Source: Stentor roeselii (lineage: Eukaryota > Ciliophora > Heterotrichea > Heterotrichida > Stentoridae). From it: a DNA stretch of 64,000 nucleotides. Location of the stretch: positions 62,001 to 126,000 of the forward strand of contig RSEH01000054.1 of NCBI GenBank assembly GCA_006503475.1. The letters are read 5' to 3'. The position numbers were made by a program, and so were the translations under genes. Below, piece by piece: positions 54,332 to 60,598 of this stretch (position 1 is its first letter; each line of letters starts with the position of its first letter). A model generated the notes under the pieces. That model was not told the origin of the DNA. It was given only the letters and a program-made list of their open reading frames with translations, and made no database searches.

Positions 54332-55504
54332 ATGACCACTCACGATGAATACATTTCTCGTCACTTGAACCCAATCTTACACCAACTAACTCTTGAGCTG
54401 GTACGTGAAAAGCCATCAAATCCTACAGTCTTCCTCATCGATTTACTTCAAAAACGCTTAGGAGTATCTTCAGGAATATCTGAAAAAGAAGAGCTTCGAC
54501 TTCTCCGTCAAGAAATGGCCCGTTTGAAGCACAAAGCACATCATCATGGTTCAGAAGAAGAGAAAAGTGCCAGCGATAGTGAGGAAAGTTTTGTAGAAGA
54601 GGAAAAGTTGAAACCGAAAAAGGAAAACCAAAGAAGCGGGGTCTCAGCTGAGGTCTACGGCACATGGAACAAAAAAGAAGATTTCAAGCCAGTTCTAATC
54701 AAAAAGACCGACGACCAAAAAGCCCGCTTAGAATCTATCCTAGGAAGAATCTTCATGTTCGCCGAGCTAGACGACAAAGAAAAAGAAATCGTGATCGACG
54801 CGATGAAAGAATGTAATTTCCCATCAAACTCCGAAGTGATAAAGCAAGGTCAAGACGGTGGCGAGTTATTCGTGATAGACTCAGGCCACCTAAGCTGTTA
54901 CAAAAGAATCAACAACGAAGAAAAACTCTTAAAAGAATACGAACCAGGTCAATGTTTCGGAGAACTTTCTCTATTATACAACGTTCCAAGAGCAGCAACA
55001 ATCATAGCAAAGACCGACTCATTACTTTGGAGTCTTGACCGAAGCACATTCAACCACATCGTAAAAGACGCTGCTGTTAAAAGAAGAGACCGATACGAAT
55101 CCTTTTTAAGTAAAGTCGACCTTCTCTCCGACATGGACCCTTATGAAAGGTCTCAACTTGCTGATGCACTTGTCTCTAAAAAATTCGAAAAAGACGCTTT
55201 TATTATCAGGGAAGGCGAAGAAGGCAACGATTTTTTCATCATTGAAGAAGGAGAAGCCCTTGCAACGAAAACAATTCATCCTGGCCATCCACCTGAACAA
55301 GTCAAAAAATACTCACCTGGAGAGTACTTTGGAGAACTTTCACTTATCAAAGGACAGCCTAGAGCTGCTAATGTCATCGCGTCAACTGCAGTAAAATGTG
55401 TCTCTCTCGACAGGTATTCGTTTAAAAGACTTTTAGGCCCGTTGGAAGGCATACTTGAACGAAATGCCAAGAAATATGAGGAAATCATTGCGAAGTTAAT
55501 TTAG
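54332..55504 (+). CDS. cAMP-dependent protein kinase regulatory subunit, 390 aa
   Basis: The N-terminal docking/dimerisation helix pair (HLNPILHQLTLELVREKPSN) is followed by an acidic linker. The pseudosubstrate region NQRSGVSAEVYGTW aligns with RI-type RRGAISAEVY. Two cyclic-nucleotide-binding domains carry intact phosphate-binding cassettes: GELSLLYNVPRAATII and GELSLIKGQPRAANVI, both with the key Arg and Glu. It binds two cAMP and inhibits the catalytic subunit. The inhibitor site has Gln instead of Arg at P-3 and Gly at P0, weaker than in animals. Only 19 nt separate it from the next gene. Confidence 0.94.
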   Translation: MTTHDEYISRHLNPILHQLTLELVREKPSNPTVFLIDLLQKRLGVSSGISEKEELRLLRQEMARLKHKAHHHGSEEEKSASDSEESFVEEEKLKPKKENQRSGVSAEVYGTWNKKEDFKPVLIKKTDDQKARLESILGRIFMFAELDDKEKEIVIDAMKECNFPSNSEVIKQGQDGGELFVIDSGHLSCYKRINNEEKLLKEYEPGQCFGELSLLYNVPRAATIIAKTDSLLWSLDRSTFNHIVKDAAVKRRDRYESFLSKVDLLSDMDPYERSQLADALVSKKFEKDAFIIREGEEGNDFFIIEEGEALATKTIHPGHPPEQVKKYSPGEYFGELSLIKGQPRAANVIASTAVKCVSLDRYSFKRLLGPLEGILERNAKKYEEIIAKLI

Positions 55505-55523
55505 GAATTCAAATAAATAATAA

Positions 55524-57095
55524 ATGGACTGTAATTTTGGCGATTGCCGAAAACCTGCAGAGGATCAGTACACATGTGACAATTGCTACATTCCGAAGTA
55601 TTGCTCTGAGAAATGCTTGAAGGCTGATAAGGATAATCACTTCAAGTGGTGCTGTCCGAGAACTTTCGTGTTGAAGGACTTTGTCCCTGCCAGGACCACT
55701 CGAAAAGTTCTTGATGTTGGGACTTATGGAGAAGTGCAACTCATGCAAAATATGACTAATCATAAGCTTTATGCTATGAAAGTCATTCGTAAGGCTTTGG
55801 TCAATGAAATCATTCCTCTTAAAATATTGTTCAAAGAAATTATGATTCATAAAAAACTTGTTCATCCTAATATTGTTAGGCTTGTTGATCATTTCGAGGA
55901 TACTACTCGACTTTATATTATATTAGAGTACCTCGAAAAAGGAAGTCTATTTGACTTACTAAGAAAAAAAATCAAGCTTCAAGAGCCAGAAGCCTGCGAC
56001 ATTCTAATCCAAACACTAATCGGTCTAAACTACCTCCATACAAACGACATAATGCACCGTGACATAAAACCTGAAAACCTTCTAATCTCCCGTCACGACT
56101 ACATAAAAATCTGCGACTTCGGTTGGAGTGCGACAGGTCCCGAAAAAAAATTAACCTTTTGCGGTACTCTTGACTACATGAGTCCAGAAATGTTAAACTC
56201 TGAGCCTCACACTCCAAAAATCGACATCTGGGCAGTAGGGATCCTTTTATACGAGATGCTTCACGGCTCTCCACCTTTTCGAGGTAAAAACCCAAAAGAG
56301 CAATACCGACTAGTGAGCAACAACAGCTACTCAATAAATCAAAATGTTTCAAAACCAGCAGCGAGTTTAATCCGATCAATTCTTCAACTTCGGCCTGAAT
56401 CTCGACCTTCTATTCTTGAAATTCTTTCAAGCGATTTCGTTAAATTTCACTCAGAGTCCAAGTTGAGACCTGGCCAAAGAATAGAAAATTCAAGTAACGG
56501 GTCTGGAGTCATCACTCTTGTATCTGGAAAAGTCGTCACTGTTCAGTTTGAAGCTAGTCAGTTGTACCAGGGACAAAGAGGCTCTGTTATTCGATTGATT
56601 GAAGCGGATCTTTATCGTAAGTTCTTTGTTTATGATGAAAATGGAAACATGGTCTTTCAACCACCTGAAGAAGAAAATTTGAATCCTCGGAATTTTGCTG
56701 AAAATCCTAATGTGGCTGTTAATACTTTGTATAGGAATCTTGGAATTGACTCTGGAAGAGTTACTCCTATTAGTGGAAGGGCTACTCCTATTTCTTCTGG
56801 ATCACATTCTAGGAATAATTCGAGGAAAAGTGGATTGCTGCAACCGGAGTTTAATGTTAGAGACTCTAGATCTTCTAATGCACCTAGAACTCAGATTGAA
56901 ACTTCACCTCCTTTAGCTGATAGGCCGCCTAGGAATTCAAGAAATCTTGAAGAATTTAAAAGAAGCCACCCAGTTCTTCCAAAGCCAAAAGAAGACTTCA
57001 AAAGAATAAACCTAAGCCCAGATCCATTCTCCCCATCAGGTGCTCAAGTGAAGCAAAGAAGCAGCTTTTTAGCTAGATTCAAGGCCAATAGTTAG
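55524..57095 (+). CDS. MYND zinc finger fused to an Aurora-like protein kinase, 523 aa
   Basis: Residues 3-43 form a MYND finger (CNFGDC, CDNC, YCSEKC, H and C in DNHFKWCCP). The kinase domain starts ~60 (GTYGEVQLMQ; AMKVI; HRDIKPENLLIS; DFGWSA) and has the Aurora T-loop KKLTFCGTLDYMSPEML with the activating Thr conserved. A beta-rich segment (~315-390) and a Ser/Arg-rich low-complexity tail with a repeated RxTPIS motif follow. Aurora kinases act in mitosis and cilium disassembly; MYND fingers bind Pro-rich peptides. I know of no Aurora kinase with an N-terminal MYND finger in well-studied organisms. Confidence 0.9.
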   Translation: MDCNFGDCRKPAEDQYTCDNCYIPKYCSEKCLKADKDNHFKWCCPRTFVLKDFVPARTTRKVLDVGTYGEVQLMQNMTNHKLYAMKVIRKALVNEIIPLKILFKEIMIHKKLVHPNIVRLVDHFEDTTRLYIILEYLEKGSLFDLLRKKIKLQEPEACDILIQTLIGLNYLHTNDIMHRDIKPENLLISRHDYIKICDFGWSATGPEKKLTFCGTLDYMSPEMLNSEPHTPKIDIWAVGILLYEMLHGSPPFRGKNPKEQYRLVSNNSYSINQNVSKPAASLIRSILQLRPESRPSILEILSSDFVKFHSESKLRPGQRIENSSNGSGVITLVSGKVVTVQFEASQLYQGQRGSVIRLIEADLYRKFFVYDENGNMVFQPPEEENLNPRNFAENPNVAVNTLYRNLGIDSGRVTPISGRATPISSGSHSRNNSRKSGLLQPEFNVRDSRSSNAPRTQIETSPPLADRPPRNSRNLEEFKRSHPVLPKPKEDFKRINLSPDPFSPSGAQVKQRSSFLARFKANS

Positions 57096-57325: not shown

Positions 57326-58366
57326 CTACTTAGATTTGAGATTCATGTACTCATCATACAATCCAGAGTACTCTGTCTTGATATTCAAATCATATTCCCA
57401 GTACCACTTCGGCAAGCTGTGCTTGATCATCTCTTCTCCTTCCTGCCAAGTGATGTCATTCGGGGTGTCTTTAACTCTGTCAATCATTTCTTCTATTGTG
57501 AAAAATCTTTTTTCATCTAGTTTGTACTTCCATTTATGGTCTGGGTGTCGATTAAACATGTTTTCTAGATGAACTAATGATTCATTTAAATCAACTCCTG
57601 CGCAATTTTTTATCTCCTCAAGGTTCAGCTCGTGAATCGTCCTGTAAAACACTTCCCAGACGTCGATGTCGCCGAATTTCTTCTTTTTTACGATTTCATT
57701 GATTTTTTCCCAGATCCATGGCTCGAAGTACTCGGCTTTTGATAGTAAATTTATAAACTTCAGTAAATAACTCTCGATGTGAATAAATCGGAATTTGTTG
57801 AATCTTTTTCTTAGTATTGGCATCAGATGCTCATGCATGTAGTTCATTGCGTCGAACTTGTCACCTGGGCTTAGACAGCAGGCTTCTATTAGTTGGAATA
57901 ACTCGAATGGCGCAATTGTTGGAAGTGCTTTTGAGTTGTACTCTTTAATCACTGATTCTAAAACATTTAATCTGCCCTTTCCTAACTTAATCAATCCATA
58001 CAGGCATCCAAACAACATTCGATTTGTCATTTCTGAAAACTTTACAACAATATGAAAATCGATTTCCTTCCAAAGATTTTCATCCTGAAGATTATCCAAG
58101 GCAGCTTGATATGCCATATAAGAAGTAGTTCCAGAGGAAACATCTAAAGTAGGATTGAGTTGAAGATGATTAAAAATAGTTTCAACAGGGTTCTGCTCCC
58201 CATGCACACAGTCAATAAAACCTTGGAAATTTCTCCTATCAATAGGATCAGTGATATAACTAATCTCATTGATTTTCGCCCTTTTTGACAAAAAATGCTT
58301 TTTGTAAATCCTTTCATAGCCAGGATGTCCAGGGTACCAGTACCTTCGAAATATCTTGGCAAACAT
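57326..58366 (-). CDS. Candidate mitochondrial helical-repeat protein, 346 aa
   Basis: The N-terminus MFAKIFRRYWYPGHPGYERI is basic and aromatic and could be a presequence. The body is helical throughout (LFGCLYGLIKLGKGRLNVLE; YLLKFINLLSKAEYFEPWI), recalling FASTK/PPR-like or mitoribosome-associated helical proteins. It lacks a RAP domain, which the adjacent upstream gene has. Its ATG is only 5 nt after that gene's stop, suggesting joint expression. Family not recognised. Confidence 0.65.
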   Translation of the reverse strand: MFAKIFRRYWYPGHPGYERIYKKHFLSKRAKINEISYITDPIDRRNFQGFIDCVHGEQNPVETIFNHLQLNPTLDVSSGTTSYMAYQAALDNLQDENLWKEIDFHIVVKFSEMTNRMLFGCLYGLIKLGKGRLNVLESVIKEYNSKALPTIAPFELFQLIEACCLSPGDKFDAMNYMHEHLMPILRKRFNKFRFIHIESYLLKFINLLSKAEYFEPWIWEKINEIVKKKKFGDIDVWEVFYRTIHELNLEEIKNCAGVDLNESLVHLENMFNRHPDHKWKYKLDEKRFFTIEEMIDRVKDTPNDITWQEGEEMIKHSLPKWYWEYDLNIKTEYSGLYDEYMNLKSK

Positions 58367-58371
58367 TTTTA

Positions 58372-59490
58372 TTACTTAAGTAAAGACTGGATAAAAACCT
58401 TCCGATCTTCACTTGATTCAGGCCAGTCGAAGTACGCGATAGATTTAACTGAAAATCCTAAAAACTTGAGAAATTCTCTTTTTTTTATAGTCCTTCCTAG
58501 TTCTTTTCTCATTGGGTGGAGGTAGTGAAAAGGACCTTGAATCTCAATCACTTTATTTTCTGGAAGAAGAAGGTCGACTAATGTGCTGAAATCGGTTGGA
58601 AGAAGACATTGCTCGGATTTAAAAGAAATGTTCATTGACTTGAGGACATCTTCCACACTTGAATGTAATTTTGTCATTTCTCGAAGGGATGAAGGGGAAA
58701 TTTCTTTTTTTTCATATAAAGTGAGAGTTTTATTGGCAACTGAAATATTTTTAAAGAACTTTAAGTAGTTTTTCACAGTAATAGCTTCTTTTTTGATGTT
58801 GTCATCGACTTTCGAAAAATTAAAACTTTCAAAGTCGTTGATAAGGTTTTTTGGAATCAAGTAATTGTCGATCATTGTCAAGGAATGCATGATTGAAATA
58901 AAGTTTTCATATGAAAAGTGAAAAAATCTGCAAGTTTCTAGCTTTTCCTGAAGAAGACTCCAAAGACTTTCATCGAGTTCTTGAGTATTCGAAAACCATT
59001 TCAAAAGTTGTGCCATCAGCTCTTGATTCAATCTTCCACAGGGAAGATTAGACGAGAGTATTGCAAAAGTAATGAAATCGAGAATTGACTTACTGTGAAA
59101 TCTTGCTTGTTCCATACTTTTTAAAAGGAAGATCATCTGAGTTATCGTCATTTCAAATGGATGAAGACTGTCCATAAGTGACTCGATAGGTTTTATCACT
59201 TGAATCACGGAAGCGTAGTCGATAATTGAAAAGTACCTCAAAATTTTAGATAAATTTTCTAAGTCTTTGATTCCTCCCTGATTTGATTTTGAAAGCAAAT
59301 AAGAGACTATCTCAGGGTCTGTAAATTTCCATTTCGAGTAAGCTTGGGTCAGTTGAGAGGCGATTTCTTCGTATTTTATTCTTCGTGTTTTCAGGGTCTC
59401 TATGGTTTTAATAAAGTCTGCTTTTGAGTTCAGTACCAGAGAAGATTCTAAAGAACGTTTCAAGCTGGATAACAAAAAAGTGCCAGCCAT
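58372..59490 (-). CDS. RAP-domain protein, probably mitochondrial RNA-related, 372 aa
   Basis: Residues ~20-290 are helical repeats (ILRYFSIIDYASVIQVIKPI; MTITQMIFLLKSMEQARF). The C-terminal ~70 residues form a RAP domain: VDLLLPENKVIEIQGPFHYL, then LGRTIKKREFLKFLGFSVKSI and a YFDWPESS end, matching the endonuclease-like IEVDGPxHF...LGxTxLKxRxLxxxGW pattern. RAP proteins (FASTK, OPR) process or stabilise organellar RNA. The usual Asp in VDGP is Gln here (IQGP). MAGTFLLSSLKRSLESS is a plausible presequence. Confidence 0.82.
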   Translation of the reverse strand: MAGTFLLSSLKRSLESSLVLNSKADFIKTIETLKTRRIKYEEIASQLTQAYSKWKFTDPEIVSYLLSKSNQGGIKDLENLSKILRYFSIIDYASVIQVIKPIESLMDSLHPFEMTITQMIFLLKSMEQARFHSKSILDFITFAILSSNLPCGRLNQELMAQLLKWFSNTQELDESLWSLLQEKLETCRFFHFSYENFISIMHSLTMIDNYLIPKNLINDFESFNFSKVDDNIKKEAITVKNYLKFFKNISVANKTLTLYEKKEISPSSLREMTKLHSSVEDVLKSMNISFKSEQCLLPTDFSTLVDLLLPENKVIEIQGPFHYLHPMRKELGRTIKKREFLKFLGFSVKSIAYFDWPESSEDRKVFIQSLLK

Positions 59491-59584: not shown

Positions 59585-60598
59585 TCAAAAAATCAAGCAA
59601 TTATTACAAGCAGCTTCACCTTTAATAACCTTTTTCTTAACTTTTTTCCCTTCTAAACCTTCAGAAACTTTTCCATCATGACCAATTTTCCCTTGAGTTT
59701 CATTTTTCATTTCATTTCTAAATTCCCGTGAATCTTTTCTTTCTTCTTTTCGACTTCCAAGTCGAGTATCAAGATTACTTTTCCCAGTAGACCAGGTAGA
59801 CCCAGTTGAAAAATCGACAATAAACTCATCTTTAGTGACACTAAAATTCGCATTACAAATAGTGCAAAGTTCTAAGCACTTCTCACACAATGCATGTCCT
59901 CGACTACAAGTGCCGATAACGACAAACACAAAGCAAGCCATGCATCGATTTCTTGGAGTTGAGTAAGTCAAGCAAAGCCTGCAACCTTCTTCGAAGCAAG
60001 AACTACAAACATCATGTTGATCTTCAGGACATCTGGAAAGTGTTTCAAAAGCATGACAATAATCACAATATTTTATAGAATTTGAATATAAAGACTCAGG
60101 CCGCTCTATCATAAGACAAAGCGGGCAGCTTCCTTTAAAACAATCGTCACAAAGACTGTGACCGCAATTTTTTTTATCGATTTCAGTAAAAGCCTGGCAA
60201 TAACAACATGATTCAATTTGAGAAGTTTCAATATTACAGATCGGGCAGTTGTTTTGAACTGAAAAACAATCATTGCAGATTTTATGACAGGAAGAAATTA
60301 AATTTTCTGATGGTTTCGTGCAGTAGTCGCAAAGTTTTAATTGGATTTGAAAGGAAATGGTTTGTGAGGAACTAAAAGTGGAATGTGTTAAGTTGTTTGA
60401 AACTTGTTTTCCTTTGAAGGTCTCGCTTTTTTCACTGAGTACTGAAAAAATCACGGGAACGGTACTTTTGCAATGGATGCAGTAGACGAATTCTTTTAGG
60501 TCTAAGTGGTCTGGACAAACACCGTGGATTTTTATAAAGTTTACTTTGAACTGTTGTTCTGATGAGCAAGTGATGCAGAGAGTCCTGCAGTTTGACAT
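59585..60598 (-). CDS. Cys-rich tandem zinc-binding protein with C-terminal CaaX-type end, 337 aa
   Basis: From ~10 to ~265 the protein contains a long series of CxxC pairs (CDYCTKP, CNDCF, CPICN, CCYCQAF, CGHSLCDDCF, CPLCL, CDYCHAF, CSSCFEEGCRLC, CMACF, CEKCLELCTIC). These read as several degenerate RING/B-box-like units in tandem. A charged tail leads to EAACNNCLIF before TGA. CLIF fits a CaaX box with Phe as the last residue, which favours geranylgeranylation, with an extra Cys nearby. This predicts a membrane-bound scaffold or ligase. The claim depends on TGA being a stop. Confidence 0.75.
   Translation of the reverse strand: MSNCRTLCITCSSEQQFKVNFIKIHGVCPDHLDLKEFVYCIHCKSTVPVIFSVLSEKSETFKGKQVSNNLTHSTFSSSQTISFQIQLKLCDYCTKPSENLISSCHKICNDCFSVQNNCPICNIETSQIESCCYCQAFTEIDKKNCGHSLCDDCFKGSCPLCLMIERPESLYSNSIKYCDYCHAFETLSRCPEDQHDVCSSCFEEGCRLCLTYSTPRNRCMACFVFVVIGTCSRGHALCEKCLELCTICNANFSVTKDEFIVDFSTGSTWSTGKSNLDTRLGSRKEERKDSREFRNEMKNETQGKIGHDGKVSEGLEGKKVKKKVIKGEAACNNCLIF

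Follow-up and report, generated by a model that had tools for sequence, protein, structure and literature searches.

The gene at positions 55524..57095 (+) of the window, the 64,000-nucleotide stretch of Stentor roeselii DNA analysed here, encodes a protein of 523 amino acids that joins a MYND zinc finger to an Aurora-like Ser/Thr kinase domain, followed by a segment that is likely a Tudor-like docking domain of the UvrD/PcrA type. Nine further genes of the same genome carry the finger and the same kinase in one frame, and the fusion is therefore a real gene family, not a chance fusion. We consider it reasonably probable that the protein is an active Ser/Thr kinase belonging to a lineage-expanded Aurora-like subfamily, with the MYND finger and the Tudor-like domain as built-in docking modules.

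Open reading frame and genetic code

Read with the standard code, positions 55524-57095 (+) yield 523 amino acids plus a TAG stop codon (57093-57095, +) with no internal stops, which is where an earlier sequence-only reading had placed the frame. The codon directly 5' of the ATG (55521-55523) is an in-frame TAA, so the gene has no in-frame 5' extension. The first in-frame ATGs after the start codon stand at codons 74 and 77. By then the glycine loop has already begun, at about codon 66, and a complete kinase begun at any ATG must therefore carry the MYND finger. Ciliate code 6 was ruled out, as the kinase genes of this genome end in TAA, TAG and TGA and the standard code gives long frames. In-frame introns of 15 bases ending in TAG are present in two other kinase genes of the genome (L028 and L038). 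Stentor introns are described as unusually small in a passage of PMC9371601, and a passage of PMC9942806 reports introns of 15 and 16 bases in Blepharisma, where TGA encodes tryptophan. A single-sequence structure model of the whole protein had a mean pLDDT of 34, too poor for judging the fold.

The MYND finger

The finger spans residues 3-43 (55530..55652, +), with the zinc ligands C3, C8, C18, C21, C27, C31, H39 and C43. The Pfam profile PF01753 (zf-MYND), with a curated cut-off of 22.7 bits, scored the window gene at 25.7 bits in a six-frame search of the genome and the window protein at 20.8 bits, slightly below the cut-off, in hmmscan. All ten MYND-kinase members exceeded the cut-off in the six-frame search and seven of the ten did so in hmmscan, the window protein being joined below it by L012 (19.1) and L013 (20.0). 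Because of this borderline score, the finger was additionally tested with shuffles and with a genome-own MYND profile, made from ten hand-trimmed fingers of other genes of the genome. Against that profile the window finger scored 28.6 bits, and the top of its 500 shuffles reached 8.7. For each of the ten members the real score was higher than that of every one of 500 shuffles, the narrowest margin being that of L018 (18.6 for the real finger, 17.7 for the best shuffle). The eight zinc ligands are conserved in MYND order and spacing in all ten members, and Y26, S28 and D35 are likewise invariant in the ten fingers.

The first zinc pair of the window finger is C-x4-C (C3 and C8) rather than C-x2-C, and this is why the MYND matches begin inside the profile, that of Pfam to the window protein at profile position 3. 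When the family MYND profile was compared with the PDB, the top match was DEAF-1 (E 9.9e-5), and 20 of the 23 rows up to E 0.1 were MYND proteins (DEAF-1, ETO/CBFA2T1, an ETO2 fusion construct, ZMYND12 and SMYD2); the other three were the zinc proteins PRDM9 (twice) and a nucleocapsid protein. DEAF-1 and ETO gave the best hits of this profile. The well-formed MYND finger proposed from the sequence alone is thus borne out, with the spacing of the first pair as a differing detail. It shares its zinc ligand pattern with ETO/CBFA2T1, DEAF-1, ZMYND12 and SMYD2, which are its nearest solved relatives, but departs from them in this C-x4-C pair, in the attached kinase and in contact residues for proline motifs that are mostly absent.

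MYND domains bind peptide motifs with specificities that vary between domains, and Met512, Glu514, Thr516, Gln529 and Trp533 are reported as important for corepressor binding by DEAF-1 (passages of PMC3555993). We confirmed the DEAF-1 letters from the PDB and placed the contact positions by a gapless match from C18 to C43. With the residue numbering that we take to hold for Thr516, Gln529 and Trp533 of DEAF-1, the window protein has Asp19, Leu32 and Lys36 in their place, and the contact residues for proline motifs of the ETO/DEAF-1 type were absent from these three positions of its finger. In the family alignment of ten members, Ser or Thr occupies the first position in one member, Gln the second in none and Trp the third in four. 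Since the DEAF-1/ETO contact residues are mostly absent, a PPPLI-type ligand is not expected for the window finger, and the earlier suggestion that the finger tethers the kinase to proline-rich partners is doubtful.

A family of MYND-kinase genes

We searched the genome (44.4 Mb in 522 contigs) with the window protein, obtaining 1242 first-look candidates and scoring 82 places. The nine additional genes with finger and kinase (L012, L013, L014, L015, L016, L018, L019, L021 and L022) encode proteins that are 32-67% identical to the window protein in the alignment. Together with L017 and L020, which have the kinase and no MYND in frame, the clade comprises 12 genes, ten of them with MYND. Across the whole genome, 21 of 24 MYND matches lie above the cut-off, and ten of those 21 belong to this Aurora-like kinase family.

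In the window protein, six residues (44-49; the linker starts at 55653..55664, +) separate C43 from the L-K-D-F at the kinase start. This spacing is nearly constant in eight of the ten members, and the linker is far longer in L021 and L022. Between the window gene (L011) and L012, dN is 0.24 in the finger, 0.23 in the junction (residues 44-62) and 0.20 in the kinase; synonymous sites are saturated, so dN alone is given, with no ratio. By these low values, amino-acid change is suppressed in the finger and junction as it is in the kinase. Two members lack the MYND finger (L017 and L020) and two others lack a detected Tudor-like domain (L016 and L018), so neither module is indispensable.

A second MYND-kinase fusion was found on contig C476 (L001:1489-2652, +), where the finger again immediately precedes a Ser/Thr kinase within a single frame. 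No MYND finger in the genome is stronger than this one (46.3 bits by six-frame search, 42.1 by hmmscan), and the kinase looks PDK1-like by its motifs. Unlike the window kinase, that of L001 belongs to another family and has no DFGW. In the tree it lies apart from the MYND clade on a long branch, so that L001 probably represents a separate fusion event. Six further frames (L004, L005, L007, L010, L049 and L053) appear by eye to combine MYND with a following stretch resembling ubiquitin-specific proteases, the finger of L053 falling below the PF01753 cut-off.

Reiff and Marshall (2017) reportedly describe novel domain architectures in the kinome of Stentor, and the MYND-kinase family may well be among them. 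Among the papers listed in literature searches, none on a MYND-Aurora or other MYND-kinase fusion was seen; PMC2394772 and PMC2536677 mention both kinds of term, and their passages on these describe no such fusion. Viral contigs gave 82 kinase matches, and among the 80 kept none extends into the finger beyond query residue 38.

The kinase domain

The kinase domain extends over about residues 48-308 (55665..56447, +), with a PF00069 match of 240 bits at residues 63-305. The ATP-binding lysine Lys86 (55779..55781, +), Glu105, the catalytic base Asp180 of HRD (56061..56063, +), Asp198 and the T-loop threonine Thr211 (56154..56156, +) are invariant in all 12 clade members, and Thr211 aligns with the T-loop threonine of human Aurora A. 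The DFGWS motif at residues 198-202 (56115..56129, +) and the CGTLDYMSPEM with its T-loop threonine, T211, are present as the sequence-only reading had described them. The window protein thus has the D-F-G-W, the activation segment of the C-G-T-[LA]-[DE]-Y-x-[AS]-P-E type and the threonine that together served as our Aurora motif. Throughout the clade the former motif is kept as D-x-G-W (12 of 12), with L019 deviating in that it reads D-L-G-W and C-G-S. In three members, L011-L013, the window gene among them, Asp takes the place of the glycine loop's first glycine, and this might reduce kinase activity.

The best 60 of 1130 PDB matches of the window protein are all Aurora, as are the best 60 of 1704 for the family kinase profile. 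Leu50 and Asp52, invariant in the 12 members, line up with the L-E-D-F that human Aurora A has just before the N-lobe. Human Aurora A, B and C therefore provide the nearest solved kinase domains, sharing D-F-G-W-S, C-G-T-L-D-Y, the T-loop threonine and the L-x-D-F kinase start. The MYND-kinase group differs from them in forming a clade of its own rather than a set of orthologues, and in having the MYND finger in front and the Tudor-like domain behind; we know of no Aurora with either. D-F-G-W, which we applied to the window kinase as a presumed marker of Auroras, is confined neither to Aurora nor to the MYND clade: a second clade, described below, has it in 10 of its 11 rows.

The segment following the kinase

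The sequence-only reading had noted a separate beta-rich segment behind the kinase. Residues 312-366 (56457..56621, +) indeed align with a segment present in 10 of the 12 clade members. Profiles built with one member left out recovered the omitted member in all ten cases at E 3e-6 or better, these values being calculated for a set size put at 500 and for segments that were trimmed and already aligned. In the PDB the family segment profile matched the UvrD Tudor domain 7egt_B at E 3.5e-5, the single significant hit among 13 matches up to E 10. Five of the 13 are helicases of the UvrD type, the four besides 7egt_B having E-values of 0.009 to 0.2, and the remaining eight are unrelated proteins (HypC, ATP synthase beta, a hydrogenase subunit) at E 0.15 to 2.1. 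The Pfam profile for this type of domain, PF21196, matches three of the ten members up to E 10, at best with 9.3e-4, and the window copy on its own is weak, its sole Pfam match being Tudor_1_RapA at E 0.08. Several members show the pattern G-x-x-V-x-H-x-x-F-G-x-G-x-V of the UvrD/PcrA C-terminal Tudor domain. By profile and pattern, the segment is likely a Tudor-like docking domain of this type, differing from its counterparts in being attached to a kinase and not to a helicase. The Tudor domain of PcrA binds partner proteins: it recognises a beta-hairpin motif carried by RNA polymerase and by UvrB (passages of PMC8318588). Polo boxes were also considered for the beta-rich segment and dropped, Pfam giving no polo-box matches up to E 10.

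The Tudor-like domain is the fastest-changing part of the protein, L011 and L012 being 40% identical there and 75% identical in the kinase. At the C terminus, residues 510-523 (57051..57092, +) form a basic-hydrophobic tail. Its pattern occurs in 11 of the 12 clade members, L015 being the exception, compared with 11% of shuffles and 1 of 16 control kinases of the genome. These figures describe the tails rather than test them blindly, since the pattern was defined after the tails had been seen.

Phylogeny of the kinases

For the phylogenetic tree, 70 of the 82 kinase places were fetched in addition to the MYND loci; 83 kinase stretches were found there and 52 were used. The selection dropped same-gene duplicates, L046 as a false fit, four stretches that were split or partial, the whole but divergent L054 and L089, and 14 of 22 PLK-like rows; four human references brought the tree to 56 rows. 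The 12 MYND-clade kinases clustered together with support of 100/99. With 70 of the 82 kinase places covered, L032 grouped with human Aurora A/B (100/99) and the MYND clade remained outside this group. The PLK rows formed a clade of their own (100/98), as did the 11 rows of the second, largely DFGW-bearing clade (100/97). The latter consists of L023-L027, L031, L034, L037, L070, L081 and L084, several of which carry long tails resembling coiled coil on visual inspection.

Seven constrained groupings were compared with the free tree. Four of them improved on it: Aurora with the second clade by 1.05 log units (p 0.512), MYND with Aurora and the second clade by 0.87 (p 0.519), MYND with the second clade by 0.69 (p 0.528), and MYND with Aurora alone by 0.45 (p 0.517), the unions of MYND with Aurora, alone or together with the second clade, being neither rejected nor supported. 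Three were worse: MYND with PLK by 3.3 (p 0.334), Aurora with the second clade and PLK by 3.4 (p 0.362), and MYND with the CAMK-like set by 15.0 (p 0.141). As none of the seven was rejected, these tests do not decide the branching order of the MYND clade, Aurora, the second clade, PLK and the CAMK-like kinases. The Aurora type assigned from the sequence alone therefore holds as similarity and fails as orthology: on these comparisons "Aurora-like" is a fair name for the MYND kinases, and "Aurora", as a statement of orthology, is not. Identity as a PLK was considered and set aside, the window kinase lying outside the PLK clade and its protein lacking Pfam polo-box matches up to E 10; a union with PLK was itself not rejected.

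It also seems rather unlikely that the kinase is not derived from Aurora at all and instead represents a separate branch near the Aurora, PLK and CAMK-like kinases, with DFGW shared or regained. The order left open by the tree is compatible with such an origin, neither the union with PLK (p 0.33) nor that with the CAMK-like set (p 0.14) being rejected. Yet the nearest solved relatives are Aurora throughout, among the best 60 matches in both PDB searches, and D-x-G-W is retained in every member of the clade. The constraint tests point the same way, in that joining the MYND clade to Aurora and the second clade improves on the free tree while joining it to PLK or to the CAMK-like set carries a cost.

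Proposed function and alternatives

If the protein is an active Aurora-like kinase with docking modules, phosphorylation of Thr211 would switch it on, as in other kinases with such a T-loop. The finger, which lies six residues ahead of the kinase start, and the Tudor-like domain would serve as protein-docking modules, a role suggested by the kind of domain to which each belongs; they would recruit the kinase to partners or substrates and keep it there. Animal Auroras are directed by the separate partner proteins TPX2, INCENP and Bora. The built-in modules may replace the separate partners that serve canonical Auroras, and the paralogues would then differ mainly in their address, that is, in targeting.

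The finger might, instead of docking, act within the molecule, packed on the N-lobe as an internal activator or inhibitor. The site proposed for this packing is the one at which canonical Auroras are bound by TPX2 or INCENP, and both the nearly constant spacing from C43 to LKDF in eight of ten members and the invariance, in all 12, of the Leu50 and Asp52 that align with the Aurora A L-E-D-F would suit such packing. Against it, the far longer linkers of L021 and L022 imply that a fixed packing is not general, and L017 and L020 keep the kinase without a finger; we regard this arrangement as improbable. Much less credible still is the idea that the family is degenerating or driven by dosage, its extra modules contributing little function. 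The very large kinase set of the genome, with its 1242 first-look candidates and 82 scored places, and the members without a MYND or Tudor-like module would agree with such decay, but the zinc ligands (10 of 10) and catalytic residues (12 of 12) are invariant, dN is low in the finger and junction, and the tail pattern recurs in 11 of 12 members.

Apart from the docking-module reading that we prefer, there is a bolder one, which we hold to be doubtful: that in a lineage-specific Aurora-like subfamily covalent modules have replaced the Aurora partners, the MYND finger sitting on the N-lobe and, together with a Tudor domain of the helicase type, acting as activator and address, with MYND apparently fused once more to a PDK1-like kinase. 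Were this true, a large cell would gain a set of separately targeted Aurora-like kinases. A kinase family that has docking modules built into its own chain would offer a natural test of the share of targeting in Aurora control. Lin et al. (2020), as cited in a passage of PMC9371601, reportedly found that inhibiting Aurora kinases in Stentor brings forward or holds back later stages of regeneration. If the organism studied here is close to the Stentor of that regeneration work, the MYND-clade kinases would be candidate targets of Aurora-inhibitor drugs, and an analysis restricted to Aurora orthologues would overlook them.

Neighbouring genes in the window

A gene at 54332-55504 (+), encoding two cyclic-nucleotide-binding domains (PF00027, 131 bits), ends 19 bases before the start of the kinase gene. 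An operon-like link between the two was rejected, as the protein of the upstream gene had no match at E 1e-3 within 1500-base flanks of 10 of the 11 other family loci; the lone exception, L015, is flanked by a match of only 27% to that protein, on the opposite strand. On the other side of the kinase gene, the frame at 57326-58375 (-) has no Pfam matches at E 0.01. The same holds for the frame at 59585-60598 (-), which encodes a Cys-rich protein of 337 amino acids whose repeated C-x2-C arrays appear RING-like on visual inspection. Between these two frames, positions 58372-59490 (-) encode a RAP-domain protein (PF08373, 35.4 bits).
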